A stretch of 48,505 bases of DNA, taken from positions 1 through 48,505 of the forward strand of contig JAFLVI010000005.1 in assembly GCA_022508405.1 (NCBI GenBank). The letters are read 5' to 3'. This DNA comes from Clostridiales bacterium (lineage in GTDB: Bacteria; Bacillota; Clostridia; Christensenellales; Pumilibacteraceae). Below are positions 23,822 through 48,422 of this stretch, piece after piece. The notes beneath the pieces were generated by a model. That model saw only the letters and a program-made list of their open reading frames with translations. It made no database searches and was not told where the DNA came from. Position 1 is the first letter of the stretch; each line of letters opens with the position of its first letter. The translations under genes and the position numbers were made by a program.

Positions 23822-23861
23822 GTTTTTGTACTATATTTGTTTTAATAAAAATCTATTCTTG

Positions 23862-25085: not shown

Positions 25086-25091
25086 AATCCG

Positions 25092-26303: not shown

Positions 26304-26334
26304 GACATAACCCCTATTTTATACTACCATTGTG

Positions 26335-26363: not shown

Positions 26364-26387
26364 GTGTACAGTATAAAAATCGTTGAT

Positions 26388-27248: not shown

Positions 27249-27256
27249 ACACAATA

Positions 27257-27285
27257 AGTATAACAAACAATATCACAAAAATCAA
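27257..27285 (-). promoter_or_regulatory. ftsQ promoter, probably leaderless
   Basis: TTGATT (27285-27280), a 17-base spacer and TATACT (27262-27257) on the minus strand are followed by only 8 bases before the ATG. The transcript should begin at or within two bases of the start codon. Confidence 0.65.
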
Positions 27286-27381
27286 GTACTTACTTATTTT
27301 AAAAAAGAAGTTAGTAAGAAAATTTTAATTCGATTTCCGTTTTTGTGATTGTTGTATGCAACCACGATTTTCAATCTCAGT

Positions 27382-27416
27382 AAAAAGCGCGGTAGATTGA
27401 TTTCTACCGCGCTTTT
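27382..27416 (-). terminator. Terminator of the LRR lipoprotein gene
   Basis: A 14-base perfect stem (27383-27396 with 27403-27416, core AGCGCGGTAGA) has a 6-base loop and ends in a T run on the minus strand. Confidence 0.93.
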
Positions 27417-27435
27417 AGTTTAATCGATTTGTAAA

Positions 27436-28926: not shown

Positions 28927-28958
28927 TTTATCTCCAAAAAATAAAAAGATATATGTTT

Positions 28959-28987
28959 TTTATATCATATATAACTATTTTTGTCAA
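28959..28987 (-). promoter_or_regulatory. Promoter of the LRR lipoprotein gene
   Basis: TTGACA (28987-28982), a 17-base spacer and TATAAA (28964-28959). The -35 box lies right after the hairpin that ends murA. Confidence 0.85.
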
Positions 28988-28989
28988 TA

Positions 28990-29021
28990 AAACGAATTAC
29001 TTCTTTTAACGAAGAAGTAAT
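28990..29021 (-). terminator. Weak terminator after murA
   Basis: ATTACTTCTT (28996-29005) pairs with AAGAAGTAAT (29012-29021). The minus strand continues TCGTTTTATT. The stem is AT-rich, so read-through is likely. Confidence 0.5.
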
Positions 29022-29042
29022 GTCATCATTTGTAATTTTTAA

Positions 29043-31044: not shown

Positions 31045-31072
31045 AACGACAACTCCCAAAAAATTGTATAAG

Positions 31073-31100
31073 AAAAAGCGCGATATAATATCGCGCTTTT
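31073..31100 (-). terminator. Terminator of the giant-gene operon
   Basis: AAAAGCGCGATA (31074-31085) pairs with TATCGCGCTTTT (31089-31100) around a 3-base loop, and the minus strand continues with T. It lies 10 bases after the third giant gene. Confidence 0.93.
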
Positions 31101-31109
31101 TTATTTTGA

Positions 31110-34100
31110 TTATTCGTCGTCGTCCGACCTGTTGCCGTTCAGCCTTGAGCGAAGCTTGTTAAGCACAAGCTGGTTGGCAAGTCTGCGCACCTTATCGGAA
31201 GCTTCCGTTTCCGCTATGGTGGTGAACTCTTGCGGCAATATATCGCGCAAAATCTCGTCCACTCTTTCTTCGCTTACACCGCCGTCACCCAACTGTTCCA
31301 CAAGCTGTTCCATTATCAGCTTGTTGGCAACCTGTTTGGCAAGCTTATCAGCCAAATCCATTGCGTCCGCCGTCATCATGGGATTTAAATCCATTTCGCC
31401 GTCGCCGCCGAGTAATCCCGCCTGCTGTTCGATAAGCTCTTCCAAATCACTGTACTGGGGTTCTTCAGCGGGTGCTTTAACTTTGACTACGGGTACGACT
31501 TTGGGTTCGGGCTTGGCATTTTTCTTTGTGGATTTACCGCCCTTTTTGCCCTTTCCTGTGCCGGCGCTAGCCGTGCTCGTTCCGCCCGTCTTAGCGGAGT
31601 TTTTTTGCGTTGCGGGCTTTCTGCCGCGTTTTTTTCCTTCATTAGCCGCGGGCTTCTTTGCGGGAGCGGGCTGTTCGGGTTCCACAATACCCGCTATCTC
31701 GTTAAGCTGTTCCTTCAAATCGGACAGCGAGCCTGCAAGGTCGGCATCGGAATTTATATCGCGCGTTTCTTCGCGTTCCGCAAGCATTGTTATTTCTTCA
31801 CGGAGCCGCGCAATGGCGTCGAGTATAAGCGCGTTTTCTTGACTGGGTTTTTCTCTGCCGAGTTCTTCCCTGAGATCGGCAAGCTCGGCAAGGATTGTTT
31901 CGTTATCCGAAGCGTGACCCGACTGCATCATTACTTCGCGAAGCTTAGCTACTTCTTCCGCCACTGCATCACTGGAGGCGATTTCCGCCTTAAGCTTTTC
32001 CAGTTCGTCGGTGATCTTAGTATCTGCGTTTTGATTGGACTGGTTTTGACGTTCCAACAGGTGCGTCATCTCCGAAATATAGTTGAGCGTGGAAATATCC
32101 GCTTCGCGCTGTTTTACCATGTCTTCACGCAACGCGGCAAGTTCGTCCAAAACTCTGTCGTTGCCGTCCGTATCCAACAAGGACACTCTATCCGAAAGCG
32201 CGTCCAACGCCGCTTCGCGCTTGTCAAGCGCGGCCCTGAGTCCGGCGACTTCTTCCGCTATCATTTCGATATCGTTTGCCGAACCGGCGGTGGCTATCTG
32301 GTCGCGGAGCGAAGCAAGCTCGTCCAAAATAATATTGTTGTAGCTTTCGTAATTTGACTCGCCGGAAGCCGGATCGTTGACATTTGCCATGCTTATGGCA
32401 AACAGCTGATCGCGGAGCGATTGAACTTCCGTCATGATAGAGTCGTTGGATTCGCTGTCCGCCTTGCCGGCTATGCGTTTTACGTCCTCTATCTGTTCGC
32501 GCAACGACTGGAACTCGTCGCGCAATGCCAAAATCTCGCTCATTACGCCGAGATCGGGTTCATCCTTTAACGTCTGAACATCGGCTTTGATTGTGGTTAC
32601 GTCCTCGGCTACGCCAAACAGGCTGTCGGGCGAAGAAAGCATTGCTTTGATTTCCGCCAGCTCGTCACGCAAAGCCTGAACTTCCACATTGCCGCCGCTT
32701 TCTTGCGCAACGGTAGTGAGTGAGCGAAGCTGAGCAATTTCGTCGCGGATGTCGCTGAGCTCTCCTGCCAGCAAGTGTTGTTCGGTCTGAGCGGCAAGCA
32801 TATCGCGGATTTCCTGCATCGTCTGTTCGTCGAGACCGGCAGTGGTCTGCACGGAGCCGACCGCCGCAACTTGCTCTTTAAGCTCGCGGATTTCGTCTAT
32901 AAACGCAGTATACGAAGCGTCGCCTTCCGCCTTAGCCATAGGCGTTACTGCCATCATCTCGCGTATAGTATCCTTAAGATCGTCGATCTGCGCGGAAAGA
33001 ATATCCGTACTGTCCGCCCTGAGCTGTGCGTTTTCGGCGCGAAGCGCTTCGATCTCCGCACGCATTTGCTCCATTTCCGCCGCGTAATCTACGGGCGCAA
33101 TGCCTGCAAGTGCGGTTTTGATTTCGGCTATTTCGGCGTTTAGTCCGTCAAGGCGTTCCCCGAGCAAACCCGAAACTTCGCCGCCGTTTTCCGCTACGAC
33201 AACACTTTGCGCAAGACGAATATCTTCCAGCGCGTCGTTAACCGTTTGCAACTGCTCCATTACGGGCGCAAGGTCTACAACAGCTTCGGTAGCCGCAACA
33301 GTTGCGGTCTCGGTTTCGCCGCCGGATACCGCGCGTTCTTCCAAGACGGCGCGAATCTCTTCCACCTGTTCGGCAATGGCATTAAGCCTATCGCCGCCCA
33401 GAACTTCTTCTATGCGGTCTATGTCGTTTTTAAGATTGATTATTTCGTCGAGAACAACGTTTATCTCGGAGCTTGCGGGCACGGCTTCGCCGTCTGCGCT
33501 AGCTATGGTTGTTCTGCGGCTGACAAGCTCTTTAAGCTCGTCTATATTTTCGCTGAGCGCGTTCTGATCGGCGCGCAATCCGGTAATCTCGTCCAATACC
33601 GACATGTATTCTTCGGGGTTTTCCTGAGAATCGGACTGTACGGGCGCACGCTCTACACCGGAAGTAACATTGAGCACTTCGTCCTTGAACGCAAACACCT
33701 CGTCGCGCAACGAAACAATCTCGTTGAGCACAAGATTGACCTCGCCGTCTGTCGCCTGAACACCGCCTTCTCCTGTGGGAAGATTGGCAATATCCTCGCG
33801 AAGAGCGCGAATCTCGTCAAGTATGTTGCCTGACGAAATAGCGGCAAGTTCGTTCTTTATGGATTCAAGCTCGCCGGAAACCTCGTCCTGATCTACAATG
33901 CGCGCGGCCTTTATATCGTCACGCAAGGACAGGATTTCCTCGACCGTATCGTATTCGGACGGAGCGTCCAGTTTTTCCTTAATTGCAGTCAGCTCGGAAA
34001 TAAGCACCTGCATGGTTTCCGGATCTAACTGAGCTGTTTCGCTCTCGGCTACCGCACCGCCTGCAAGTCCGGACTCAAGCGCCGTCTGCAAGTCGGCAAT

Positions 34101-37100
34101 CTGCGCCGAAACGTTTTCTATAGCGGCGACACTTACGTCGTTGACAGACTGAGTGGCGTTTTCTATATTGCTCAAACGCTCGCGAATCTCGGCGATTTCG
34201 CCCAAAAGCGCATCGCGAGTTTCCGCATCTATGCCCGAAGCGGACATATCTTCGTCAAGCGTGTTGATGTGAATCTCTTCGCGTATTCCGCTGACGGTAT
34301 CTATAATCTCTTGCTTGTTGGCAATAGCCGTCTGCTCGTACTGCTCTATTCTGTCCAGCAACAGCTTAAGGTCCTCGACCGCGCCGTCCACTGTCTCGTG
34401 CAGAACGGTTATTTCGTCTGCTACCGCCTGACTGTTGTCCGATTCGGGAGCCGAAGCCGACATACTTTCCGTAAGTGCATTGACCGACTCAAGCAATGCG
34501 TTTACGTTATCGCGGATGAGCATAACGTCTTCCGACAAAGGTAACAACGCAATAGCGTCGAGTATGGAAAGCGTATTGTCGCGCGCGGCAACAACGTCTT
34601 CCGATAACGGCATTTGCGAAAGAGTATCGAGTATTGCGCTTATATTTTCGCGCATGCCGGCAAGGTCGTCGGCGACATAGCTGTTGTCAACCTCTACGGA
34701 TTCTTCTACGGTTGCCGGAGTATCCAGCTTTTCAAGAATGTTGTTTAACTGCTCGGTTATGGGCGACAACGCTTCAACAGCGGAATAAGCGGCATCACGT
34801 GCTTCGACCACGCTTTCGCTCATTGCGGTTATATTGTCGTTGATTACAGTAAAGTTGTCGTTGACGGCGACAAAATTGTCGTTGATAGCGGCTATACTGT
34901 CGCTTGCGGCGGCTATACTGTCGCCCATTGCCGCAACAGCGTCCTTTGTTACGGCAGCGTTGTCCGCGATGTCGTTGATAAGCGACACACGCATCGCTAT
35001 TTCGTCAAGATATTGTATTACCTTTTCGTTTTCCTGCGCCGCTGCCGCGTCTTCGGGAGCCTGATCTTCCGAAAGCGCAAGCTCCGCCTGTTCGCGCAAG
35101 AACGCAATATCGTCCAGCAAACGCTGTCTGTCTGCAGCTGCGGCATCGGTATTTGCCGCCGTTAAATCCATAAACGAATTTACGTCGGTGCGAAGCTGTT
35201 CCAAAGCTTCGGTTATGGGCGACATCACTACGGAATCGGACACAACGGCAAGCGAATCCTTGATTGCCTGAGTTTCGGCAAGGATGTCCGCCTTGGCGAC
35301 TTCAATAACATCGGCCATGCCGGCGCCGTCGCCCATTTTGCCTATGATATTAGCTTCCGATTCGAGTATTACATTGGTGACGTCTTCGTACAGCTTATCA
35401 AGCTGTGAAGTTACGTCAGCAAGAAGAGTGCTGGTCTGCTCCGCCAACTCCTGTGAAACTTCCGCACTGCCGCCTACGTCTGCCGTAGCCAAATCGGTGC
35501 GCAAATCGGCAATATTGTTAAGTAAAGCCTCGTAATCGTCCAGCTTGGCGCGGATGTATCCGAGGTCGTCCAGCATTATCTGGCGCTCGTCTTCCGACAT
35601 TTCGGCGCCGCCGGTCTCGCCGCTCTGTTCCGCAACGGCAGGCTCTTGCAATTTTTCAGAAATATCAACCAAGCGATTGGCTATTTCCAAATAATTGTTG
35701 CGCAATTCCTCGAGCGCTTCGGGCACGTCGGAATTGCCGGTAGATTCTTCCAGCTTGTTCTTTAAGTTATCTACCGCATACAGTATTTGCTGCAGTGCGG
35801 CCTCGTCCATGGACAATTCGCCGTCACCCGATGTAGGAATAATCGTAGGCGGTCTGTCCATGACGGCTGTTTTAAGGTCGGCAAGCTTTGAGAAAATCGT
35901 TTCGTCGTTGGCAGAACGCGCGGGCTTGTATGCCTTGGGCATTTCCGCTTCGGGCAAATCCAACACGTCGGCAACGGTGATTTCCACAAGCCGTTCTACC
36001 ATATCCTTAACGGCGGCTTTATCGCTCTTTTCGTTGAGTAAAGCCGTAGTAATCTCGCCCACTGCGGCGGCGTTTTCCGCCTCGTACTTGTTGTTTTGCA
36101 GAGTGTTGATTTCCGCAACAAGATCGGGCAAGTAATCGCCGTACGAATCGACATTGGCGTCCGAAATCTTTTTTACCAAACCGAAGAAACGGTCGGCGCT
36201 TTCGCGCATTGCCGAAGTGACGGTGGTCATGCCGCGCTCGGCACAGAATTCCGCAACGGCGTTGAACGACTGCTTATTGAGCGGCTTGGCGCCCAATTCG
36301 TCTATCAAGGCGTTGGTCGCGTCTATTAAATCAATAGCGTCCGGCTCGTTGCTGTCCGAAAGGCGCTTAACAAATGCGTAAACCGAATTAAGCTTGTCTT
36401 TGTATGATGCGGATTGCGAGTGAACATCATAAGTGACCTTTTTATAATCGTTTACAAGTTCGGAAATAGTTTGCGCACGCTTAACCGCCGCAGACGAAGC
36501 ATTACCGATTGCCGTCTTAATTTCGTACAGCTGACGCAAAAGCTCGGCGGCGCTGATTTCCGAAACAGTGTTTACAACGGGAGCAATCTGCTGTACGGCG
36601 GGAGAAGCGGCAACCGGAGCCCCTTCCATAACGCCTTTTAATGAAGCGATTGCGCCTGAAAGCTCGGAAAGATCAATGCCTTCGATACTGCCGGCAACTT
36701 TTTTCATAGACGAAACCGCGCCGTTAAGTTCCTTAACGGACGGCATTTCGTCCAGCTGCTTTTTAAGCTGGCCTAAATCGTTCTGTATGCGCGCGTCATT
36801 CTCGCGCATAGCACGCAAGATAGCCTCGTTGATCGAGAGTAATTTATCAAAGTTTAACGAAGATTTGCCGCCCTCAAGGTGTGCCGCCGGCTGTTCGCCT
36901 TCCGGCAATTCACTTTGAGGGCTTGACCCGTTTTTTAGTAGGTCGTCGATTTTACTCTGCAACCGTTGGATTTCCGCATTGTACTGAGCTTCCGCAAACT
37001 TCTGATCTCGCTGCATATCTTCCTTGATACGCGTGAGCTCTTTCTGCATTTCCAGACTGTTCTGGTTGCGGGAAAGCTCGTCACGCAAGCGCGAAATTTC

Positions 37101-37448
37101 GTTGTACATTACAACCTCGCTGCCCGCAGGCGGCGCAGTGGGTTGATAGATATACTGAGGCGGCATAGGCATCTGCGGCTGTTGCATAGCAGGTACCATT
37201 CCCCTCTTAAGTTCGGCAAGCTCGTCAAGGACCTTGGTCAGACGGTCATCGTAATAATCATCGTTGTAACCGTCGTCGCCGTAGTCGTCGTACTCTTCAT
37301 CGTACTCCTCGTCGCCGTAGTCATCGTACTCATCGTCGTACTCTTCGTCATCGTAGCCGTCATCGTATTCTTCGTCACGATCGATAACTTCCTCTTCTAC
37401 GATTTCCTCATCGTCCAACGAAAAAGTCGTCTTGTCTTGGTTGTCCAT
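31110..37448 (-). CDS. Giant cytoplasmic coiled-coil repeat protein (2112 residues)
   Basis: The protein has no signal peptide or membrane helix. Residues 12-69 are almost only Asp, Glu, Tyr and Gly. A short Pro/Met/Gln linker (84-108) follows. Residues 110-1920 are predicted helical with about 18 recognisable copies of a motif like ILDELASLRDQI at irregular spacing, and one run of 7-residue units (DSIAAIN, DNFVAVN and others). Residues 1927-1996 are a Lys/Pro/Ala/Gly-rich basic linker with KKRGRKPA at 1939-1946, like an AT-hook. A final helical domain (1998-2107) is followed by DDDE. GAGGAA lies 7 bases before the ATG at 37448. It is the third of three giant genes, and I know no close named relative. 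Inference: a cytoplasmic scaffold or filament, perhaps touching DNA. Confidence 0.9.
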   Translation of the reverse strand: MDNQDKTTFSLDDEEIVEEEVIDRDEEYDDGYDDEEYDDEYDDYGDEEYDEEYDDYGDDGYNDDYYDDRLTKVLDELAELKRGMVPAMQQPQMPMPPQYIYQPTAPPAGSEVVMYNEISRLRDELSRNQNSLEMQKELTRIKEDMQRDQKFAEAQYNAEIQRLQSKIDDLLKNGSSPQSELPEGEQPAAHLEGGKSSLNFDKLLSINEAILRAMRENDARIQNDLGQLKKQLDEMPSVKELNGAVSSMKKVAGSIEGIDLSELSGAIASLKGVMEGAPVAASPAVQQIAPVVNTVSEISAAELLRQLYEIKTAIGNASSAAVKRAQTISELVNDYKKVTYDVHSQSASYKDKLNSVYAFVKRLSDSNEPDAIDLIDATNALIDELGAKPLNKQSFNAVAEFCAERGMTTVTSAMRESADRFFGLVKKISDANVDSYGDYLPDLVAEINTLQNNKYEAENAAAVGEITTALLNEKSDKAAVKDMVERLVEITVADVLDLPEAEMPKAYKPARSANDETIFSKLADLKTAVMDRPPTIIPTSGDGELSMDEAALQQILYAVDNLKNKLEESTGNSDVPEALEELRNNYLEIANRLVDISEKLQEPAVAEQSGETGGAEMSEDERQIMLDDLGYIRAKLDDYEALLNNIADLRTDLATADVGGSAEVSQELAEQTSTLLADVTSQLDKLYEDVTNVILESEANIIGKMGDGAGMADVIEVAKADILAETQAIKDSLAVVSDSVVMSPITEALEQLRTDVNSFMDLTAANTDAAAADRQRLLDDIAFLREQAELALSEDQAPEDAAAAQENEKVIQYLDEIAMRVSLINDIADNAAVTKDAVAAMGDSIAAASDSIAAINDNFVAVNDNFTVINDNITAMSESVVEARDAAYSAVEALSPITEQLNNILEKLDTPATVEESVEVDNSYVADDLAGMRENISAILDTLSQMPLSEDVVAARDNTLSILDAIALLPLSEDVMLIRDNVNALLESVNALTESMSASAPESDNSQAVADEITVLHETVDGAVEDLKLLLDRIEQYEQTAIANKQEIIDTVSGIREEIHINTLDEDMSASGIDAETRDALLGEIAEIRERLSNIENATQSVNDVSVAAIENVSAQIADLQTALESGLAGGAVAESETAQLDPETMQVLISELTAIKEKLDAPSEYDTVEEILSLRDDIKAARIVDQDEVSGELESIKNELAAISSGNILDEIRALREDIANLPTGEGGVQATDGEVNLVLNEIVSLRDEVFAFKDEVLNVTSGVERAPVQSDSQENPEEYMSVLDEITGLRADQNALSENIDELKELVSRRTTIASADGEAVPASSEINVVLDEIINLKNDIDRIEEVLGGDRLNAIAEQVEEIRAVLEERAVSGGETETATVAATEAVVDLAPVMEQLQTVNDALEDIRLAQSVVVAENGGEVSGLLGERLDGLNAEIAEIKTALAGIAPVDYAAEMEQMRAEIEALRAENAQLRADSTDILSAQIDDLKDTIREMMAVTPMAKAEGDASYTAFIDEIRELKEQVAAVGSVQTTAGLDEQTMQEIRDMLAAQTEQHLLAGELSDIRDEIAQLRSLTTVAQESGGNVEVQALRDELAEIKAMLSSPDSLFGVAEDVTTIKADVQTLKDEPDLGVMSEILALRDEFQSLREQIEDVKRIAGKADSESNDSIMTEVQSLRDQLFAISMANVNDPASGESNYESYNNIILDELASLRDQIATAGSANDIEMIAEEVAGLRAALDKREAALDALSDRVSLLDTDGNDRVLDELAALREDMVKQREADISTLNYISEMTHLLERQNQSNQNADTKITDELEKLKAEIASSDAVAEEVAKLREVMMQSGHASDNETILAELADLREELGREKPSQENALILDAIARLREEITMLAEREETRDINSDADLAGSLSDLKEQLNEIAGIVEPEQPAPAKKPAANEGKKRGRKPATQKNSAKTGGTSTASAGTGKGKKGGKSTKKNAKPEPKVVPVVKVKAPAEEPQYSDLEELIEQQAGLLGGDGEMDLNPMMTADAMDLADKLAKQVANKLIMEQLVEQLGDGGVSEERVDEILRDILPQEFTTIAETEASDKVRRLANQLVLNKLRSRLNGNRSDDDE

Positions 37449-37485
37449 AAATGTTCCTCGCATTTGTTATTTGTTTTACACTTAT

Positions 37486-37561
37486 TCCTACCGCTATTTA
37501 AGCGGAATTGAATCATTGGAGTTGCGTAGCGGCATAAAGATTACGCCTTTTTTCCGCTACT
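37486..37561 (-). other. Hairpins between giant genes 2 and 3
   Basis: In the 111-base gap GTAGCGG and CCGCTAC form a 7-base stem (about 37529-37561), and CCGCT/AGCGG forms a second one nearer the third gene. Neither is followed by a T run and no clear promoter is seen. The third gene is therefore probably co-transcribed, with possible RNA processing here. Confidence 0.4.
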
Positions 37562-40500
37562 ATCTGGGTCTTTTAGGTCCGCCGCTCGGGCCGCCGGGAC
37601 GTGCCCCGGGTCTTGCTCCGGGACGTGCACCTTGCGGTCTTGCGCCTGCCGGTCTTGCTCCGGGACGTGCGCCTTGCGGTCTTGCGCCTGCCGGTCTTGC
37701 TCCGGGACGTGCACCAGGTCTTGCTCCGGGACGTGCGCCGGGACGTGCACCGGGTCTTGCGCCCGCTTTACGCTTGGGTATGCGGTTGACGCGTTCGGTC
37801 ACCTTGCGGACTATGCGCTGCGGCTTTTTAGCGTTTTCAGCCTTTAACCGCGCAATCTCGCCGCTGTTTTGGATATCGTCCATGGTCTTGTTGTAGAAGT
37901 CCATGAGCTCGCTTGAACCGTGTTCGTCTTCGTCGAAAGTGAGTTGCAGGTTGTACAACCGTTCACGCAACAACTTGGCATCTTCATCGCCCTTAAGTTC
38001 TTTCATCTCGTTGCGAATGGCAATAATCTGATCTTTACGCAACGCGACCTTTTTGGCGATAGCGTCGGCACGCTCGGCGTCTGCCTTTTGGCGTTCTTCC
38101 TCTTCCTTGCGCTTGTTCTCTTCTTCCAAGCGTTTGGCTTCGGCTTCTTCCTCGGCTTTGCGGCGCATTTCCTCAATCTCTTCCTGAGCCTTGCGCTTAG
38201 CTTCTTCCGCTTCCGCTTCTGCTTGACGTTTAGCTTCTTCCGCTTGCTCTTCCGCCAAACGCTTAGCTTCTTCCGCTTCCGCTTCTGCTTGACGTTTAGC
38301 TTCTTCTGCCTGTTCTTCTGCAAGACGCTTTGCTTCTTCCGCTTCCGCTTCGGCTTTGCGGCGAGCTTCTTCGGCCTCGGCCGCCATAGCTTCCTCGGCT
38401 TCTCTACGCGCTTGCTCGGCGGCTTCTACGTCCGCTCTTGCCTTTTCTTCGGCTTCTAAGCGAGCTTTTTCCGCTTGCTCGATTGCTTCCTGAGCAGTAC
38501 GTTCCGCTTCCAGACGTGCGGCTTCGGCTTCTTCTTGCGCCTTGCGGCGATCTGCTTCCGCTTGCTCCTGCGCCTGTTGCGCGGCAAGGCGGGCCTGTTC
38601 GGCTTCCAGCTTGGCACGCTCGAGATGCTTCTTAAGATTTTCCGCCTCGATCTTGGCTTGGTCTTTACTGATTACACCGCTACCCGAAGTGATAAGGTCA
38701 AGCGGATTGGTGTTGGTGACAAAGTCGTCAAACGACCTGCACGCTTCTTCAAACTCGTCGTTGGTTCTGTCAAGGTCAAGACGCGCGCGCTCGAGTTGCT
38801 CGTCGTGTTCGGCCTGAGCTTCCATCTTGCGCTTGGTGCCGTCGATATTGGTTTGCTCGAGTCTTGCCTTGAGCTCTTCAAGTTTGTCGTTGGTTTCGCC
38901 CTGAGCGACCATAAGCTCAAGCTTTTCGTCCTCTGACGCGGCTTCCATTTGCGCGTTGATTTCATCAAGCTGGGTTTGGACGGAAGCGATTTCTTCTTCC
39001 AGCTCGGAAACGGCGGAAGCCACATCCATGGCGATCATTGTTACATCGTTGGCGGATGCGGACAAGTCCTCGTAAACCGCTTGCGCGTTTGCAACTGCCT
39101 GTTCGGCTTCGTTCTTTTCCTTTTCGCGTCTTGCTTTGACAATCTCGAACTCTATTGCGCCTAGAACTTGGTCGTCCGCTTTGATGACTTCTTCCAGCGG
39201 TATCTCGTTTTTGCCGATAAAGTCGTTTGCCTTGCGGCGCTGAGCATTGAACTCGATATTGAGATCTGCCTTTTGCTTTGTTGTTTTGGTTATTTCGCGT
39301 TCAAGCTCGGACAGGCGCGCATTGGCGTCGGAAATTTGAGCATTGAGATCTGCGATAATGCCGAAGTCGGTTGCACCCAAAATCTGAGATTTGGCTTGAG
39401 CGACTGCCGATTTGAGCGATTCGCGCTCCTTGGCTTGGTCTTGCTCCAACTGCTCGATACGTTTCAACTCGTAATCGGTGTTGTTGACAGCCTGAAGGAG
39501 AGGTTCCAGCTCGGTAACCTTTGCTTCCAATTCCTGACGCTTGCGCAATGTTTCCATGCGCTCCACATACGCGTTGTATTCCGCTTTGGCTTTTTCTAGT
39601 TCGGCTACGGCAGCCTCCAACTCGCCGCTCTTTTGCTGTTGCAAATCGTTTAGCTTGGTGTAAATGCCGTTTATGCGATCGCTGTTGCCCAAAAGCTTTT
39701 CCAACTCTTGACGAAGTCTTTCCAGTTCGTCGCTGTTACGCTTTTTCTTTTCTTCTTTAATGCCGATATCGCGAGTGATGGTCGGTTTATCCTTGTTCTT
39801 AGCGGAAGCAAGCTTAAACTCGAGCTCTTCGATATCTTTTGCGTACTGCGCGTCGTCTTGTTCGGCTTTGGCAATCTTTTCACGCAATTCGTCTTCCATG
39901 GTCTTGGCTTTATCGACCTCGGTCTGAACCTTATCCAAACGTGCTTTGAGCTCGGCAAGTTCTTTGTTGAGAATTTCGTTTTGATGCTCGATTGCGCGCA
40001 GTCTGCTCTCTTCCGGCGAAGTATCGATGTCGATCTTCTCCTCTGAGAACTCGTCCGCCTTTTTCTCCGGCTCGACGTACAGCGGCGAATCAGGATCGAA
40101 GTCGAGTACAAACAGTTCTTCGGTGACGGATTCTGTTGCAGTAGGCTCGGACGAAGCGGCGGGTCTGGACGAAGCGCCGGTTGTTTTGGCTTCCGTTTCG
40201 CTCATAACAGCCTCGTCCATAGGCATGGGCGATTTGTACCGTTCGATTATGCGCTTCTTTTCCTTATCCAGCTCGCGCGCCTGCAAATCCTTGGACTTGA
40301 AGAACGTGCGGCGAACCATGCCCTTGGGTTCGTACTTTTCGGTGAAAATGCGCTCCAAAAGCTCGTCGTCCGAAATGTATTTGGCGATAAGCGCGTAAAG
40401 CTCTTCTTCCTCGGACGGTGCGGGCGCGGCCGGTTGCTCTCCTGTAGACGGAGTGGACGGTGTGGAAGCATTGGGCGACGAACCGGTGGCAAGCTGCAAG

Positions 40501-42650
40501 GTGTCCGGATTGGGCGTTGCGCCCGAAGCGGGGCCTGCGCCCAAAAGCATTTGATTACCTGCTTGCGACATTACCGGATTTTGCGCCGCAGTGCGCTGTG
40601 CCTGCGTTGCCGCTATTGTCGAATTAAGCTTGACTATATAGGACGACACGGGCGCCTGCATAGCAAGTTCGTCCTGCTTGCGCTTGGAAAGCGCGCGAAG
40701 GAACAACCAAACTATAATAAGTATAATGATTATTCCGCCGAGTATGGCAGCCGAGATAATAAGCCATGCCTGCCAGTCGTCGAACCGAGCAAATATACTG
40801 CCGGCGTCTACGTTGATATCTATAACTTCGGAATCGAATGTTATAACCTGTCTGTTGTTGTTGGTAAACTCAAGCTTGACCTTTGCCGTGGTCTGACCCT
40901 TTATGTTGTCCACTTTGGGGTCGAGTTTGAGCACGTTATTGCTAAACGTAACGGCAAGCTGCTTCTCGTTGAGCGACCATGCATTGGTAAGCAGATAACC
41001 GCGGTCGCGCATATCGGCAAACACGGCGGCATTAAGCGCATTGTACGAAACCGCCTTTTTGCCTTCTATAGGCTGGAACTTAATGGAATATCCACCGTAA
41101 GTGGTTACAATAATGCTTGTTGTATAGTCCTTACTGTCCAGCGTAGTAGGTCCGTCGTAATAGCGAATGGTAAAGCTTATAATAAACGTGCTGTTTGCAA
41201 GAGAACTCTTTTTGCCGGTTATCTTATAAATCGTGGGCCAGTATTTTTCCTCATCGGACAAGTCGAACACGTACTCGCCGCCATCGACTTTTACAGGGTC
41301 GATAGAAAGACCTTCCGGCTTTAAATTTTCACTTCCGTTTACTGTGGTTTTAAGATGGTTGAAGGCGGCAGGATTGTAGGTACTGGGCGCGCCGTAGTTC
41401 ATTATGTCGTCGGGACGAATATAGATTGCGCTGTAGTCGGACGAATCATCGTCTTCGGCGCTGTCCACAGGTCTTATTATGGTCTTACTGTTGTGGTAAT
41501 CCATAATATTTTTGGAAGTCACGTTAAGGCTAAGATATGACGTATCTATTTGCTTTTCCTGCGGGTTTGCAGGCAGGAATGTAAACGGAATGTAAATATA
41601 ATAGCTCTCGTTGGCATGACCGGTAACGTGGCTGATTTTAACAAGCATTGTTTGGATTTTTTCAAAGAACGTATCGCTGTTTAACGATTTGATTTGTTCG
41701 TCGGAAAGCTCCACCCATCCGGAAATATACGGCGCAATGCGGACATAGGAATTGCCCGTGGTCGTGGCGGGAGTGGAGTTTTTGATCTCGTTCTTTAAAG
41801 TCAAGCCCGAAATTTCGGGGAAGGAAACCTCATCTATTTGCAGATTGGTAACCGAGTTGACAGTCCACATGGAAGTGGAGCCGTCCATGCGCGGCTGATG
41901 GGATGTTGAGTACAGAGCGCGGCCCTGCAACAATTCGCTAAGGTCAATAGTGACCTTGGAATAGTTTTGGACACCTTTCGTGCCTTTTTTATCTTCATAA
42001 ATAGGCTGATGAACGGTGCCGGTGCACGAACTGGCCTCTTTCCTACTGTTGCCGTCCATGACGTATTCCTTGCCGTTGCTGTCAACTTTGTAACCGACAT
42101 AAAGCGTTTCGTTAGGTGCGCATTGCACAAACGAGTCGTTGACCGTTACCGCAAAATAAATCGTTCTTTCATCATCATTCGTGTCAACCTTAACTTTAAC
42201 CGAAAAGTACCCGATAGTATTTCCCTCGGTCATGGAAAGCGCGTCTATGGTAAAAGTTTGCGCTTGTCCTTCGTACTCATTGTTAAACGTTACTTTAAAG
42301 TTGGGATTGTCCCCGTTTATCAACGTATCTGTTGCAAAAGCGTATGAATTGATATCACCTGTTCCGGTTTTACCCACAGCGTTAGCCGATATAGTGCGCC
42401 TACGGTAATTTTCACCGTTGAATTCGGGAACTTGAGATGATTGAGATTCGGTTGTCTGGCTAAGCTTGCCGTTTACGTCCAGCGTAAGATTAACAGAAGA
42501 CTGCGCGGTGCTACCGGCATTGTTACCTTCCGTAAGTTCATACGCCAAAGCTGATTTGTTTGGCAATAACAGTGCTGCAAAAAGAGCAAGAAAAGCTGTA
42601 ATGAGGACTGTAAAAAGCAGTACGTTGCGTTTTATTGATGTTTTTTGCAT
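37560..42650 (-). CDS. Giant bitopic membrane protein with coiled-coil tail and GARP repeats (1696 residues)
   Basis: A signal peptide (residues 1-36, ending KSALA) is followed by an outside domain (37-625) rich in beta-type sequence and without recognisable family. One membrane helix lies at 628-652 and a stop-transfer LRALSKRKQ follows. The cytoplasmic part has a Pro/Ser/Thr linker, a small helical domain (747-806), a long coiled coil (880-1370), and a highly charged helix (about 1380-1510) built of 11-residue units such as EEAKRLAEEQA and EEAKRQAEAEA. It ends in a basic tail with 13 GARP tetrapeptides (1628-1685). The start follows the first giant gene by 15 bases, with AGGGGGTG overlapping that stop. 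Function unknown; the shape suggests an envelope anchor for a cytoplasmic scaffold. Confidence 0.9.
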   Translation of the reverse strand: MQKTSIKRNVLLFTVLITAFLALFAALLLPNKSALAYELTEGNNAGSTAQSSVNLTLDVNGKLSQTTESQSSQVPEFNGENYRRRTISANAVGKTGTGDINSYAFATDTLINGDNPNFKVTFNNEYEGQAQTFTIDALSMTEGNTIGYFSVKVKVDTNDDERTIYFAVTVNDSFVQCAPNETLYVGYKVDSNGKEYVMDGNSRKEASSCTGTVHQPIYEDKKGTKGVQNYSKVTIDLSELLQGRALYSTSHQPRMDGSTSMWTVNSVTNLQIDEVSFPEISGLTLKNEIKNSTPATTTGNSYVRIAPYISGWVELSDEQIKSLNSDTFFEKIQTMLVKISHVTGHANESYYIYIPFTFLPANPQEKQIDTSYLSLNVTSKNIMDYHNSKTIIRPVDSAEDDDSSDYSAIYIRPDDIMNYGAPSTYNPAAFNHLKTTVNGSENLKPEGLSIDPVKVDGGEYVFDLSDEEKYWPTIYKITGKKSSLANSTFIISFTIRYYDGPTTLDSKDYTTSIIVTTYGGYSIKFQPIEGKKAVSYNALNAAVFADMRDRGYLLTNAWSLNEKQLAVTFSNNVLKLDPKVDNIKGQTTAKVKLEFTNNNRQVITFDSEVIDINVDAGSIFARFDDWQAWLIISAAILGGIIIILIIVWLFLRALSKRKQDELAMQAPVSSYIVKLNSTIAATQAQRTAAQNPVMSQAGNQMLLGAGPASGATPNPDTLQLATGSSPNASTPSTPSTGEQPAAPAPSEEEELYALIAKYISDDELLERIFTEKYEPKGMVRRTFFKSKDLQARELDKEKKRIIERYKSPMPMDEAVMSETEAKTTGASSRPAASSEPTATESVTEELFVLDFDPDSPLYVEPEKKADEFSEEKIDIDTSPEESRLRAIEHQNEILNKELAELKARLDKVQTEVDKAKTMEDELREKIAKAEQDDAQYAKDIEELEFKLASAKNKDKPTITRDIGIKEEKKKRNSDELERLRQELEKLLGNSDRINGIYTKLNDLQQQKSGELEAAVAELEKAKAEYNAYVERMETLRKRQELEAKVTELEPLLQAVNNTDYELKRIEQLEQDQAKERESLKSAVAQAKSQILGATDFGIIADLNAQISDANARLSELEREITKTTKQKADLNIEFNAQRRKANDFIGKNEIPLEEVIKADDQVLGAIEFEIVKARREKEKNEAEQAVANAQAVYEDLSASANDVTMIAMDVASAVSELEEEIASVQTQLDEINAQMEAASEDEKLELMVAQGETNDKLEELKARLEQTNIDGTKRKMEAQAEHDEQLERARLDLDRTNDEFEEACRSFDDFVTNTNPLDLITSGSGVISKDQAKIEAENLKKHLERAKLEAEQARLAAQQAQEQAEADRRKAQEEAEAARLEAERTAQEAIEQAEKARLEAEEKARADVEAAEQARREAEEAMAAEAEEARRKAEAEAEEAKRLAEEQAEEAKRQAEAEAEEAKRLAEEQAEEAKRQAEAEAEEAKRKAQEEIEEMRRKAEEEAEAKRLEEENKRKEEEERQKADAERADAIAKKVALRKDQIIAIRNEMKELKGDEDAKLLRERLYNLQLTFDEDEHGSSELMDFYNKTMDDIQNSGEIARLKAENAKKPQRIVRKVTERVNRIPKRKAGARPGARPGARPGARPGARPGARPAGARPQGARPGARPAGARPQGARPGARPGARPGGPSGGPKRPR
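37596..37763 (-). repeat. 12-base GARP-coding tandem repeats
   Basis: The 3' end of giant gene 2 encodes 13 Gly-Ala-Arg-Pro units, some with an extra Ala or Gln between them. The codons are near-identical (GCACGTCCC, GCAAGACCG), so the array could expand or shrink by slippage. Confidence 0.9.
38190..38350 (-). repeat. 33-base repeats coding 11-residue helical units
   Basis: At least five in-frame 33-base units encode alternating EEAKRLAEEQA and EEAKRQAEAEA. Eleven-residue periodicity in charged sequence is typical of a right-handed coiled coil or a single stable helix. Confidence 0.85.
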
Positions 42651-42665
42651 GTCTTTCGCACCCCC

Positions 42666-45600
42666 TTACATATTTCCGTCGCCCATTTCGGACGCGTCGA
42701 ATATAATAGTGTTTCCGTCTATGTCTTGCGGTGCACCGTAGCCGGCGTCTTGAGCGCCAAAGCCATCCGTGGCGCCGAAGCCGTCCGTGGCACCAAAGCC
42801 GTCAGGAGCACCGAATCCGGCTTGGTCGCCAAAGCCGCCGCCCTGTGCGCCGAAGCCACCGTCCGGAGCGCCGAAACCGCCGTCGATGGGAACATCGGTG
42901 GCAAACGGTGTAACGGGCGGTACATTGCCCGATTGCGCGGCGGCAAACGCTGCCTTTTTGGCCTCCAATTCCGCCTTTAACTCGGCAACGGATTTTTTGC
43001 CGCCCTTCTTTTTCTTTTTAGTCTTTTTGTCGGCGGTTGCGGCAAGATCGGAGTTGACAAGAGCTACGCCGCTTTCGTCCTCCTTATCCTTGCGCATTTC
43101 GTTAAACATTTTTGCGTACTTGGGATCTTCCATTTTAAGCTTGGACTTGACAAGCTGCTCACGCGAAGCGGCATTTGCCTTGCCGTGCATACGGTCGCGC
43201 AGACGAATAAGTTCCTGATTGCGCTTGATGATAGCACGCTGTTTGGATCTGCGACGAATATATACGATATAGCGAATCAAGAATATGATAAAGAGTACGC
43301 CAAACACCATGGCAAACGAATACAGCCAGATATTGCCGTAGCCGATAAGTCCGTCGTCGTCCTCCATTACGGGCAATGTATCTATAATGCCGGATATCGA
43401 TACTTCAAATGAAAGCACCTTAGTATCGTTTACGTCGTTTTCGTTAAATACGGAAACGTTCAAATCGAAGTTTCGTTTGGTATTGAGTTTGGGCGTGATA
43501 ACTATTTCCCTTGCCGCAGAGCCCGTGTCGTACTGGAAGTACTTGGCTGCAGCGGTTTCCGCCGACAGAAGGAAAATCTTGTATCTGTCAGGATTTTCCG
43601 TTTCGTTAAGATTGAGCAAATCCACGACCTTAATCGTCACTCGCGTATTCAATCCCGAGCCGTTTGTAGTCCACAAGCCCTCCTTGTTTTCCGACTTACG
43701 GCAATTTACCTTGACAATCAAGTCGCCGCCCTCGCTGCTTTGCAGCTTGATCTTGCCGGATACAACGGGGACGATTACTTCTATTATAGAATCGGACGAA
43801 GCAGATTCGTACGTGGTGGCGCTTGCGTCACGGGTAAATCTTACGTGCATGGAGAACTTATCGTTTGTCTGCGCCGTGCTGTTGCTGGAGATTATGCGTA
43901 TCGTGGGATCGGACTGAACATTCTCGAACACAACATTCTTTACGAACGGAGGCATACCTGTATCGCCGTTTTGATTTGTAAAGTAAATGGCGCGGTAAAC
44001 CTTTTCGTTATTTTTGACCGAGTTGTCCACAACGTCGCCGTACAAAATTTTATATTTGCCGTTTACGGCGTCGGAGTTAAAGCTGTTGGCTTTGCGCAAA
44101 ACTTCGTCCAACTTGGAGACCGGAATGTACTGGTCGTCTATTACGGTAACGGTACTGTTGCTTGTGGTTACCTTGGAAATATTGACAGTAAGCTCAAAAG
44201 CCACGCTCTTGTCGTACACGTTGACCGAGAATTGAACTGTGCCCGTGCCCGACCGCTTGGGAATGATTGTAAACTTTGTTTTGTTGGCGGCATTTTTACT
44301 TGTGGAGAACAGCTTGTCGTTTTCGTTTTTGCTGTCTTCCGAACTGAACAAGTTGAAGATTTGCACATTGGACATCAACTCGTTATATGCCTTTTGCGCC
44401 GTGTTATTGTTTGCCAAATCGGCGTGGTCGCCTTCCCTGACAAGTTTGATATACTGCCTTTGAGGGTTGAACAAGTCGATTTCGGTATCTTCGGTAATCA
44501 AATAGTTAAAGTCGGTTATTGTTTTTTCTATTTCAAATCCGACGATATTTGTAAAGTTGAATGTTATATAAAGCTTTTCCGTAGGCTTCCTTTGAGCGTC
44601 GGGAGCATCGCTTCCGCCTACCGCATAAGTAAAGTAACGCTCGTGCTCGGAATCGGCAAAGCGCTGCACCGCCACCGTAAAGTTGATATCCTTGCTGGTG
44701 GTGGGATGGACCTTTATCTTATCGCCGCTTAGGGTAACAACAGGCATGTTTTGACCTGTGTAATCTGTAAACTGAGAATTGTAGTTTGTAAATGCTACGT
44801 CCTTAGTGGAGTTGCCGTACGAAAAGCTGATGTTGGCATTTCTCGCATGAAGGACATAATCGTCAAGCAAAATTTCTTGGGTGTGCCCGACGTAAATTTC
44901 TTGTTCGTAGTTTACGGTATGTTTGTTTTTGGTACCCTCGGTATTGCCGTTGATGTCCAACGAGGAAGAATTCAACCTAAGAGTGGGCTGTGAAAAGATA
45001 AAAGCGACGTTTGACGCGGGTACTCTTGTGGCAAGGGTGTTTGTTTCTTTGTAACCTTCTTCATCGTCGTAATCGTATTTGTTTATTGTGAATTCGTTAA
45101 GACTGGCATTGGCGAAAACGCTTCCGCTCGTTCTGCCGGTAAGATAATCTTTTACTCCTACATTGTTGCCCTGTTTGTACCTGATTGATCCGGTAGCGTC
45201 GCTTGCGGTAAACGTGATTACGTCGTACGTGAACTGAAGATTGTTACCTTCCACCTTAAAGTCGTACATGCCGTAAACGTTTTTAAACTCCGTATTTATG
45301 GCTTTTACAACTTTATCGGCGGTAAGAGCGGACTTAAGCGCGTATCCGCTGCCCGAAAGCGCAACCGTAACGGTAATATTGTTTATTTTGGCGCTTACGC
45401 CGGCGCCGAGAATAGCAGACGATTCCTGACCTGTCGTGGGATATGCAAGCGTCGCCCTATCGCCGTCGCGGTCGGTAAACAGGAATTTATATTCGTTATT
45501 GTACTTTGCAAGATCTATGTCGTTTAAGTAGTACGACAAATCGCCGGCCGCTCTTTTATTGAAATCGGGGAAGCCGCCGTCCTTTTCTCGCATGGAATTA

Positions 45601-48308
45601 AGTATTGCGGTTTTAAAGCCGTCGTTGACATTATCCGTTACGCCGGTAAGGAACTTAATAAGCTCGTCCACGCCGGTGGATACGTCCTGCACCGCAACCG
45701 AGAATTTATTGTTATGACTGTTGTTGGGGTCCAAAAGCGGAATGTTGCTGTTGGCATCGCCGGATGTGAATGCGTCAAATGTCAACACGGACGGAGTATC
45801 CGCTATGGAGAAGGTTATACTGCATTTTTCGTAATCGTAGTATATTGCGTTGTCGTTGCTGCTTCCCTTGTACAGATTGTAGTCGTTGTACCGCGCAACA
45901 TAAAAGTCGACGCGAATATTTTGACCTTTGGACGACCGCAACGGATGAATGCGTATACCCACGCCCTTTTCCGCGTCGTACACAACGCTGAATTCAAACA
46001 TTAAGCTCTGCTGGACAGGCGTCATAAGCTTGTCGTTAAAGTAGAACTTGGGCGCATAATACGTGGCTGCTTCGAGATCTGTTATTGTGTCATTGCCGGA
46101 TGAATTGCCGGTTAGATTGTCTCTTAAGAGATATGTTACGTTTAAATCTGCGCTCTTTACACCTATAATGCGGTATGCGTCGCCTATGTTGTTTACGTTT
46201 ACAAGCGGCTTGTACACACCGGTCGCGCCGTTGATTGTTGTGTGAGCGACAGGATCGTCTTCTTCGATATTAAGATCGTAGTCCCATACGTAGAATGTTG
46301 CGGTATCAAAGTCGGGAGCGGTGTTGTTTTTGTCAGCCGTTGCAGACGGTCTGAAGGCAATTACATTGCCGCTGTCTACTCCCCAGTTTTTAATCTTTTC
46401 GCCGCCTATAGAGGGATAGAACTCGTCAAAAAGCTGTTGCTTGAAAGTACTTCCTTCTTTGATAATGCGTACAAGCTTACCCCTTTCGGTAATTGCATAA
46501 AGGTTGTTGCCGTAGCCGGAATAGATTGCGTTAAACTTTTCCAGTTTGCCGCCTGTTGCGTTCTGGTACGAAAGCTCTTGTACGCTCAGTCCGTTTGCCC
46601 AAGCGTAAATCTTGCCGTCGGAGCCAAGCGCGGCGCTGATATAATTGGGATCGTTTTTAACGGCGTCCGTAAAGTTGCTGCCGCTCAAGGTATCCGACGG
46701 GGTTGTGCCGAAAAACGCTCTTTTTTGTCCAGATTTTTGTTTGCCTGCGGCGACCGATATGAATGTTGTGCTTTTGCCGGTTAACAGTTGCGTAGGCGTT
46801 GCAACATTTGCAGCGGACGTACCGGTAGTGGAAATCTGGCCGTAAGCGTTGTCGCCCCAGCCGTAAAGCTTGCCCGATGCGTCTATGCCGTACCCTATAT
46901 CGTTGCCCAAAGCAACGGGATAGCGCACAGGGGTAGCTGCGGTTTCTTCGCCGTATTGACGTATTTCGCCGTTGTTGGCGGCGGCGCCGTTGTTGCCCTT
47001 TACATAGTAAGGATAATCGGAACCGCGAGTGTAATTGTAAACGATTGAGGAACCCTTTTGCCGCGCGTAGTACTGTTCCGTATCCACGCCGTAAAGCTCG
47101 CCGTTGGGCTGATTGCTGCCTCGGCCGCCGGCTATGGCGTTGGCAATGGCTCCGCTACTCCAGCTTATTCCGGTAACAGCGGGCTTATCCGTAGAAGTAA
47201 TTACGTCCGTTGTCATTGTAATCGTGCTTCCGCCGGATGATGTTATAAAGTTTTTACCGCGAAGAAGCAACGACGTTCCGCCGGTGCCGGTACTGCCGGG
47301 ATTGTTTATACCAACCGTATAACCGCCTGCCACTACTGAGACATTAGGCACGGTTTCCGGCGCATTCTGAGACGCCGATATAAACGTATTGAATACCTTT
47401 CGAGCATTAGTCTCTACGCCTATGTTGGATGAAGTATTATAGGTACGGTTTTCCGTTGTGGTTCTGGTGTGTACGGCATTATACAGCATCGAGCCCCATA
47501 CATAAGTATGGTAATAATAGCCGGTGGTGGTAGAACTCCACGAGCCTTGCGTGCCGTAGTTTCTTACAAACATAAATATATAATTGAACTCACCCGCCGC
47601 CAATGACGTAAATCTATTACTGGCCGAAGGGATAAGCTGCTCGGTGGGATATGCCGTTACCCCCGTAGCGTTGGAAGGAGCTTGGTAATAATAATAGTCT
47701 ATAATATCCGGCGTGTTCCACGGATAGTGGGAATTGGTTGTCGGGCGCAAAAGCAAATAGTTGACGCCACCGTCGCCGCCGGCGCCGCTTTCATCATGCG
47801 GTACATCATAATATGCCGATCCGTCCGCACCCCAAGTGTACAAATAACCTTGTTCGGTTACAAACGCGGCGGTTGTGCCCGTGCAGGCAATGCTTTTTAT
47901 TTTGTCTTTGGTCTCCGTATGATAGTGTTCACCCGATTGAGGTTCGGTACCCCATCTGTAATCTCCTTTCGGTCCGACACGGAATTTAACCGGAATCTCG
48001 GTGGGTTTTTCGGTATAGTAATCCCCCAGAGTATTGCCGCCCTGAATGCGGTCTTCCTTTGTGCTCCAGCCGTAAAGCTTGCCGTCGTATGTAAGACCTA
48101 TGGCAAAGTCGTATCCTGCCGCAACCTGAACAAACCTGATGCCGTTTTCTACCTTTGCGGCAGGAACGGTAGGTTGCGTCTCATCGGCGCGCACCATCGG
48201 CGGCTTAATAAATCCCAACAATATTACCGCGCATAACAAAAGCGCGACTATCGCGGATAACGAAACTATACGTGATTTGTTTTTATTAGAATGCTTTGTC
48301 AATTTCAT
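42666..48308 (-). CDS. Giant RCC1-like surface protein with membrane anchor and GFG tail (1880 residues)
   Basis: The start is the ATG at 48308, with GAAGGG 5 bases upstream; the frame is open further up but overlaps the promoter. A signal peptide ends VRA at residue 41. Residues 58-680 hold RCC1-type propeller units (clearest GKLYGWGDNAYGQ at 479-491, with ISVAAG and YTWGADG elsewhere). Residues about 680-1650 are beta-rich, Asn/Thr-rich and resemble a chain of Ig-like or cadherin-like domains. The membrane helix is at 1658-1683. The cytoplasmic tail has a basic helix, a KKTKKKKKGGKK stretch near 1761-1773, a short Ala/Lys/Glu helix, and seven GFG motifs plus one GYG at 1810-1860. It is first in a three-gene operon. 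Role unknown; likely surface contact linked to a cytoplasmic partner. Confidence 0.9.
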   Translation of the reverse strand: MKLTKHSNKNKSRIVSLSAIVALLLCAVILLGFIKPPMVRADETQPTVPAAKVENGIRFVQVAAGYDFAIGLTYDGKLYGWSTKEDRIQGGNTLGDYYTEKPTEIPVKFRVGPKGDYRWGTEPQSGEHYHTETKDKIKSIACTGTTAAFVTEQGYLYTWGADGSAYYDVPHDESGAGGDGGVNYLLLRPTTNSHYPWNTPDIIDYYYYQAPSNATGVTAYPTEQLIPSASNRFTSLAAGEFNYIFMFVRNYGTQGSWSSTTTGYYYHTYVWGSMLYNAVHTRTTTENRTYNTSSNIGVETNARKVFNTFISASQNAPETVPNVSVVAGGYTVGINNPGSTGTGGTSLLLRGKNFITSSGGSTITMTTDVITSTDKPAVTGISWSSGAIANAIAGGRGSNQPNGELYGVDTEQYYARQKGSSIVYNYTRGSDYPYYVKGNNGAAANNGEIRQYGEETAATPVRYPVALGNDIGYGIDASGKLYGWGDNAYGQISTTGTSAANVATPTQLLTGKSTTFISVAAGKQKSGQKRAFFGTTPSDTLSGSNFTDAVKNDPNYISAALGSDGKIYAWANGLSVQELSYQNATGGKLEKFNAIYSGYGNNLYAITERGKLVRIIKEGSTFKQQLFDEFYPSIGGEKIKNWGVDSGNVIAFRPSATADKNNTAPDFDTATFYVWDYDLNIEEDDPVAHTTINGATGVYKPLVNVNNIGDAYRIIGVKSADLNVTYLLRDNLTGNSSGNDTITDLEAATYYAPKFYFNDKLMTPVQQSLMFEFSVVYDAEKGVGIRIHPLRSSKGQNIRVDFYVARYNDYNLYKGSSNDNAIYYDYEKCSITFSIADTPSVLTFDAFTSGDANSNIPLLDPNNSHNNKFSVAVQDVSTGVDELIKFLTGVTDNVNDGFKTAILNSMREKDGGFPDFNKRAAGDLSYYLNDIDLAKYNNEYKFLFTDRDGDRATLAYPTTGQESSAILGAGVSAKINNITVTVALSGSGYALKSALTADKVVKAINTEFKNVYGMYDFKVEGNNLQFTYDVITFTASDATGSIRYKQGNNVGVKDYLTGRTSGSVFANASLNEFTINKYDYDDEEGYKETNTLATRVPASNVAFIFSQPTLRLNSSSLDINGNTEGTKNKHTVNYEQEIYVGHTQEILLDDYVLHARNANISFSYGNSTKDVAFTNYNSQFTDYTGQNMPVVTLSGDKIKVHPTTSKDINFTVAVQRFADSEHERYFTYAVGGSDAPDAQRKPTEKLYITFNFTNIVGFEIEKTITDFNYLITEDTEIDLFNPQRQYIKLVREGDHADLANNNTAQKAYNELMSNVQIFNLFSSEDSKNENDKLFSTSKNAANKTKFTIIPKRSGTGTVQFSVNVYDKSVAFELTVNISKVTTSNSTVTVIDDQYIPVSKLDEVLRKANSFNSDAVNGKYKILYGDVVDNSVKNNEKVYRAIYFTNQNGDTGMPPFVKNVVFENVQSDPTIRIISSNSTAQTNDKFSMHVRFTRDASATTYESASSDSIIEVIVPVVSGKIKLQSSEGGDLIVKVNCRKSENKEGLWTTNGSGLNTRVTIKVVDLLNLNETENPDRYKIFLLSAETAAAKYFQYDTGSAAREIVITPKLNTKRNFDLNVSVFNENDVNDTKVLSFEVSISGIIDTLPVMEDDDGLIGYGNIWLYSFAMVFGVLFIIFLIRYIVYIRRRSKQRAIIKRNQELIRLRDRMHGKANAASREQLVKSKLKMEDPKYAKMFNEMRKDKEDESGVALVNSDLAATADKKTKKKKKGGKKSVAELKAELEAKKAAFAAAQSGNVPPVTPFATDVPIDGGFGAPDGGFGAQGGGFGDQAGFGAPDGFGATDGFGATDGFGAQDAGYGAPQDIDGNTIIFDASEMGDGNM
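42728..42881 (-). repeat. GFG-coding repeats in giant gene 1 tail
   Basis: Units of 18-21 bases encode GGFGAPD, GGFGAQG, GFGATD and similar. Low-complexity Phe-Gly repeats like these are known from proteins that self-associate. Confidence 0.85.
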
Positions 48309-48393: not shown

Positions 48394-48422
48394 AGTATAA
48401 TACATTTGTGTGGGGATGTCAA
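48394..48422 (-). promoter_or_regulatory. Promoter of the giant-gene operon
   Basis: A perfect TTGACA (48422-48417), a 17-base spacer and TATACT (48399-48394). The start near 48387 gives a leader of about 80 bases with two hairpins. Confidence 0.85.

Follow-up and report, generated by a model that had tools for sequence, protein, structure and literature searches.

Three giant genes within the division cluster of a clostridial family: a conserved unit and a possible envelope-spanning scaffold

Why does a clostridial family carry three giant genes within its division and cell-wall (dcw) cluster, and what could their products do? The question is raised by a window of 48,505 nucleotides, the whole stretch of DNA analysed here, from a Clostridiales bacterium of the family Pumilibacteraceae (assembly GCA_022508405.1, contig JAFLVI010000005.1). 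Three genes, called A, B and C, follow one another on its minus strand. They form a conserved gene unit, a conclusion that is well supported by their order in relatives, and they are placed between an ftsW/spoVE-type gene and murA-ftsQ-ftsA-ftsZ. Tentatively, the trio may be a lineage-specific scaffold that spans the envelope, probably for division or wall growth. The insertion in the dcw cluster of the window's family measures 8-23 kb, with as much as 17 kb taken up by the coding sequence of the three giant proteins, and it points to a large unrecognised part of the family's envelope or division apparatus.

Evidence for a single unit is provided by gene order in related genomes (denoted by G numbers). 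A is followed directly by B, on the same strand and in the same order, in all 24 genomes that hold both on one fetched contig, and B is followed by C in the same way in 33 of 33. Negative intergenic gaps in relatives are a product of mechanical start choice. Coordinates in G340 and G433 are consistent with the order A-B-C. An exception inside the unit is found in G035, where an open reading frame (ORF) of 206 residues, similar to C, separates B and C. In five genomes (G022, G023, G024, G028 and G035) ABC or BC is kept together away from murA. Co-occurrence in order among relatives had been set beforehand as the test of a sequence-only reading of this DNA, and it is what the relatives show.

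The site before A is a near-consensus promoter of the vegetative, or housekeeping, type that is conserved in relatives. Of 21 genomes, 19 have a site of the TTGACA-17-TATAAT type, matching at 11 or more of 12 positions, 65-108 bases 5' of the A start, where base shuffles would give 0.2; since the genomes share ancestry, this count measures conservation and not independent events. The test covered A genes that were complete and fully fetched. The two genomes without the site are G023, with just 138 bases available, and G035. No comparable site is found upstream of B (0 of 17 genomes). Across the whole region, promoter-like sites are not above chance, with 18 found and 16.8 expected. In the window, the ORFs and signal scans bear out what had first been read from the letters, namely minus-strand giants of 1880, 1696 and 2112 codons with gaps of 15 and 111 bases, one promoter and one terminator. 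Some of these figures depend on the choice of start: the mechanical ORF of A begins at TTG and has 1918 residues, and that of C has 2117. An ATG five codons farther downstream in C, preceded by GAGG, gives 2112 residues and the gap of 111 bases, which is 96 bases with the mechanical start.

Membership in the dcw cluster follows from location, among mraW, a penicillin-binding protein (PBP) gene, Mur ligase genes, an mraY-type gene, the ftsW/spoVE-type gene, murA, ftsQ, ftsA and ftsZ. The contig of the window stops just upstream of A, and only the downstream half of the cluster lies on it. Upstream, relatives have an aminotransferase gene and a 2-hydroxyacid dehydrogenase gene as a divergent pair, two further genes and the ftsW/spoVE-type gene, of the SEDS family, together with Mur ligases, the mraY-type gene, the PBP with a PASTA domain, and mraW. 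The distance from the SEDS gene to murA is 8.3-23.5 kb in the window's family (14 of 14 genomes with both on one contig) and -13 to 150 bases in other families (12 of 12 stretches holding both). Stretches from other families were fetched by a search with FtsA; there were 20, of which 8 are without one of the junction genes. In two of the other-family genomes, G040 and G057, no murA follows the SEDS gene; a short gene, which is labelled ftsQ in G057, comes next and then ftsA. In G023, G027 and G028, of the window's family, murA was read and the SEDS gene was not in reach.

On the other side, murA lies 3' of C on the same strand, at -35 to 3756 bases, in 25 of the 31 genomes that can be judged, with small genes between them in some; in nine further genomes the contig ends too soon past C. 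In G054, from another family (f19), murA has the opposite orientation, and in G023 spoIIGA-sigE directly follow C.

Within the order, the unit has so far been seen largely in one family. Of 396 genomes sampled there, a profile of the C core matched 26, with 24 in the window's family and two in f19 (one weak). Among 74 genomes of the window's family, the C core is matched in 47 (E 0.001), B in 42 and A in 34 (E 1e-10); 33 of the 34 genomes with A have B and 31 have core C. A search of 61 relatives at E 0.001, weak rows included, found A in 27 genomes, B in 30 and C in 30. Relatives hold C alone, B-C or A-B-C, and such forms open the origin of the scaffold to comparison. Seven genomes match B without core C: G391 and G031 (partial), G306 and G428, in which A adjoins B, and G022, G024 and G436. 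The last three belong to genera g4 and g6, where the C that is seen (G022, G024) is divergent. The profile left out G022, G024, G035 and the second G020 piece, which are divergent or short, so the core-C counts miss such forms. Six named records are uncultured Clostridia assemblies, and source names elsewhere include Clostridiales, Lachnospiraceae and Roseburia assemblies. Genomes of the family measure about 1-2.5 Mb.

A is predicted to carry a signal peptide, outside regions, one membrane helix and an inside tail, and B a signal peptide, an outside domain, one membrane helix and an inside tail. The signal peptides and single helices first read from the sequence are borne out by hydropathy. 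The RCC1 repeats of A exceed the Pfam curated cut-offs, with three stretches recognised by PF13540 (65 bits, cut-off 22) and one by PF00415 (34.2 bits, cut-off 21.7); PF25390, a longer RCC1-like model, reaches 69.8 bits and so falls short of its cut-off of 150. In the searches made, these repeats appear to be the sole match of the trio to a known family. A query with the membrane helix and inside tail of A, restricted to proteins of 0.55-1.75 times its length, matched 77 proteins; 75 of them have RCC1-type Pfam domains, and the other two have 1104 and 1352 residues. Pairwise identity was compared among 7 sequences of A and 6 of B from five genera. For A the mean is 0.19-0.35 in the outside regions and 0.55 in the inside juxtamembrane tail.

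The same comparison gives 0.23 for the outside domain of B, 0.73 for the KYEPKGM segment, 0.58 for the helix-forming stretch and 0.76 for the GARP tail; five of the seven inside segments of B have means of 0.44-0.76. Several inside segments of A and B are thus better conserved than the outside regions. The outside domain of B is modelled as mostly beta (pLDDT 80), and matches of this model include cadherins, S-layer proteins and adhesins. Residues 1346-1610 of B have a hydrophobic period of 3.64, measured without a shuffle control. Short forms of B, with 636-826 residues, occur in G022, G030, G034 and G238; they consist of one helix and an inside coil (567-774 residues after the helix), and their C partners have 636-841 residues. 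Long forms add the outside domain of 590 residues, whose profile matched 22 ORFs, all in genomes that carry A. Long forms without A are found in G024 (B 1902 residues, C 1606). The B of G007 is broken up into two ORFs that overlap (G007:C28:46245-51348, L106), owing either to a frameshift or to an assembly error.

C is predicted to be soluble. It has a net charge of -254, is mostly helical by sequence, and has no signal segment or membrane helix by hydropathy except for one marginal window; residues 290-548 are modelled as all-helical (pLDDT 78). This agrees with its first description as a cytoplasmic, helical protein. The RCC1-like A, the GARP tail of B and the acidic head of C described at the same time are likewise all present. 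Strong conservation marks the final 80 residues of C among the long forms and G022, and this C-terminal domain was not found in the C of G024, G029, G030, G034, G238 or genus g8. Pfam and NCBIfam scans of B and C gave only matches far below cut-off; the SMC family, for instance, reaches 17.5 bits in B, against a cut-off of 567.35. A PHROGs scan found no match for B or C, and a PADLOC scan found one coiled-coil-like match, to C.

One link between the proteins is suggested by charge. In 11 genomes with A-B-C, the last 100 residues of B carry +20 to +30 and the first 100 residues of C carry -34 to -44; in six other genomes the values are -4 to +12 and -14 to -24. Across the 17 hand-picked pairs, with the 354-residue ORF of G029 counted as B, the two charges have a Spearman correlation of -0.78, and of -0.87 with one pair per genus (n=11). 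The data suggest electrostatic docking of the B tail on the C head and are no proof of it.

In the proposed assembly, A and B would be membrane-crossing receptors whose conserved tails gather C beneath the membrane, and C would be an elongated, strongly negative helical scaffold held there by both. A plausible contact is docking of the Arg/Pro tail of B onto the acidic head of C; further docking points may lie in the tail of A and in the C-terminal domain of C, both of which are conserved. The outside domains would contact wall or surface material. The least certain step is that the assembly serves division or wall growth and couples the FtsZ side to the outside, a role suggested because of the dcw location and the housekeeping-type promoter. 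C may be the ancestral core and A a later elaboration. The earlier claim of one machine that links the surface to an internal scaffold stands in so far as there is one ordered unit with two membrane-crossing proteins and one soluble helical protein; the dcw location and the C-alone and B-C forms had not been foreseen.

Several observations weigh against such a scaffold for division. Core C is unmatched in 27 of the 74 family members (9 of the 43 best genomes), in a few of them because their C is divergent; division as such therefore does not require the set. Twelve of the 47 genomes with C have no match to B; ten belong to genus g8, and the remaining two are G029, with a membrane-anchored ORF of 354 residues at the place of B, and G431. 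The charge correlation vanishes within the two groups (rho -0.33, n=11; -0.04, n=6) and may therefore reflect one or two evolutionary steps. Inside segments are not uniformly conserved: identity is just 0.31 in the Gly-rich end of A, 0.36 in the coil and 0.38 in the acidic linker of B, and the high values of the helix-forming stretch and GARP tail are partly due to low complexity. Regular coiled-coil periodicity of C is not above the shuffle maximum, and codon bias of the trio is only slightly higher than that of neighbouring genes. Finally, by analogy, a dcw location would be no proof of a division role: the excerpted text of PMC10693644 describes dcw-encoded synthases of C. difficile that act in sporulation. 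The same species also offers, in MldABC, an apparent example of a lineage-specific set of three division genes.

How do other explanations compare? One has the outside domains of A and B serve attachment or an S-layer-like coat, with C stiffening the cell beneath and the cluster location giving only strong constant expression. Such a system for adhesion or a surface matrix, anchored inside the cell, is possible, if somewhat unlikely: the matches of the modelled B domain, the faster divergence of outside regions compared with several inside segments, and the strong vegetative-type promoter are all consistent with it. The same promoter argues against a machine that acts at the septum or in engulfment during sporulation, which would be suggested by the presence of spoIIGA-sigE-sigG in the cluster, by their position directly after C in G023 (there spoIIGA-sigE) and by the sporulation-specific dcw genes known in Clostridia (PMC10693644, excerpt). 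Among 61 relatives, SpoIVA is present in 50 and a Spo0A-type domain in 57, and both kinds of marker also occur in family members without a C match (for example G025, G032 and G036). Spore genes are therefore present in genomes where the set is not matched, and the distribution of sporulation markers does not follow that of A-B-C. A spore-specific role, which the sequence-only reading had listed, is disfavoured because of this and the promoter, and is quite improbable. MreB-type genes are present throughout.

In the attachment organelle of Mycoplasma (P1, HMW1-3), surface proteins cross the membrane, and the internal proteins include giant coiled coils and acidic ones. A machine for gliding or attachment with a layout comparable to that of Mycoplasma pneumoniae is very unlikely, since the trio matches no such family in the Pfam and NCBIfam scans (the adhesins and HMW proteins were not compared directly) and its genes are located in the division cluster, a different genomic setting. 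That three unrelated large genes are neighbours by chance is the least credible explanation of all. It could account for C without B and B-C without A; the order is nevertheless kept in every readable genome, also away from murA, and B lacks a promoter-like site of the quality seen before A. The envelope-spanning scaffold can also be put more boldly, in a form that we regard as doubtful. Animals link their surfaces to internal structures through dystroglycan-dystrophin and cadherin-plakin; the trio would be a counterpart, a trans-envelope machine born in the division cluster of one clostridial family, in which the polyanionic rod C is clamped by the polycationic tail of the cadherin-like B and by the RCC1-propeller receptor A, joining the division ring to the cell surface.

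The sequence-only reading knew no named system with this make-up, and none was matched in the family scans or described in the open-licence literature of PubMed Central (PMC), as far as titles and the beginnings of abstracts go. Among systems that invite comparison, MldABC of Clostridioides difficile differs from the trio in size and layout, and the Glp-GlpR proteins of Corynebacteriales are smaller. Pfam holds a model of the EzrA family, and hmmscan gave no EzrA match for the window's B (E up to 1) or the short B of G022, G030 and G034 (E up to 0.1). EzrA of Bacilli is a spectrin-like divisome scaffold and proposed connector of FtsZ and wall synthases, with a single N-terminal membrane helix followed by a helical cytoplasmic domain of about 540 residues (PMC5354558). 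The short B forms share this layout. The window's B has in addition a signal peptide, the outside domain of 590 residues and an Arg/Pro tail, and its partners are C and A. By this analogy EzrA would be the nearest working counterpart of the short B form, though not a family match. MldABC is likewise a lineage-specific three-gene set of a clostridium, which appears important for division, and MldA carries a SPOR domain (PMC10693644, excerpt); the Pfam and NCBIfam scans, read up to E 1, show no SPOR hit for any protein of the trio, a difference from MldA. Glp-GlpR, compared by description only, pairs a membrane receptor with a cytoplasmic partner in division, as the excerpted text of PMC10522489 has it. 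The repeats of A resemble those of RCC1, UVR8, HERC2 and RPGR, with a weak match to UVR8 (E 1.2e-4) and others. They differ in that they form the outer end of a giant protein predicted to be secreted and anchored in the membrane, and no nuclear or GTPase role is implied.

Table 1. Coordinates of the trio, its parts and neighbouring genes in the window
Feature	Position	Strand	Content or basis
Promoter TTGACA-17-TATACT	48394-48422	-	Upstream of A; best minus-strand site
Gene A	42666-48308	-	1880 residues from ATG; predicted signal peptide, RCC1-repeat region, further outside region, one membrane helix, conserved inside tail
A 45-530, RCC1-repeat (propeller-type) region, middle poorly conserved	46719-48176	-	Family scan and identity comparison
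A 1660-1678, predicted membrane helix	43275-43331	-	Hydropathy
A 1683-1800, inside juxtamembrane tail	42909-43262	-	Best-conserved part of A
Gene B	37560-42650	-	1696 residues; predicted signal peptide, outside domain, one membrane helix, inside tail of about 1050 residues
B 37-625, outside domain	40776-42542	-	Modelled as mostly beta-strand domains; Ig/cadherin-like matches
B 629-647, predicted membrane helix	40710-40766	-	Hydropathy
B 756-805, inside KYEPKGM segment	40236-40385	-	25 of 50 columns invariant (6 sequences, 5 genera)
B 1346-1535, Glu/Ala/Lys/Arg-rich helix-forming stretch	38046-38615	-	Composition, identity
B 1611-1696, Arg/Pro-rich GARP tail, net about +20	37563-37820	-	Composition, charge, identity
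Gene C	31110-37463	-	2112-2117 residues; acidic head, helical core, long helix-rich region, conserved C-terminal domain
C 1-75, acidic head, net -34	37239-37463	-	Charge count
C 297-620, core used as search profile	35604-36575	-	Conservation
C 2029-2113, C-terminal domain, strongly conserved	31125-31379	-	Comparison of relatives
Terminator-like stem, 14 pairs, and T-run	31072-31102	-	3' of C
Downstream cluster, murA to sigE	22151-30302	-	
murA	29043-30302	-	Family scans
BspA-type leucine-rich repeat (LRR) gene	27436-28926	-	Family scans; between murA and ftsQ
ftsQ	26388-27266	-	Family scans
ftsA	25092-26303	-	Family scans
ftsZ	23862-25085	-	Family scans

Some smaller observations concern the proteins and their surroundings. 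The ORF between B and C in G035 (L100, G035:C4:28062-28682) is similar to the acidic head of C and looks like a duplicate of it. A fourth giant protein (L198, G017:C2:276002-286540), with 3512 residues within the stretch read, ends in a membrane helix and an inside tail that resembles part of B residues 580-746 (best E 1.4e-7). Places of this kind, with open frames of 3035-3960 residues, are also found in G002, G003, G012, G015, G018, G019 and G023.

Downstream of C, the window holds a flavin mononucleotide (FMN) reductase gene, murA, the LRR gene, ftsQ, ftsA, ftsZ, spoIIGA and sigE, with sigG on the opposite strand. The LRR gene was not seen between murA and ftsQ in the genomes of the same genus read there. 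FtsA of the window stays under the NCBIfam FtsA cut-off (123.6 vs 175.85 bits). After the ftsW/spoVE-type gene, G010, G033, G029 and G238 have two genes for proteins of 275-346 residues (L152:502-2271, L146:476-2411), which have no Pfam match in G010 and G033. Between C and murA, G034 carries a secreted, membrane-anchored protein of 694 residues with a GDPD domain (L125:13881-15965; G034:C27:23881-25965), and small genes like those of Mntp pumps lie there in G034, in G238 and, below cut-off, in G170.
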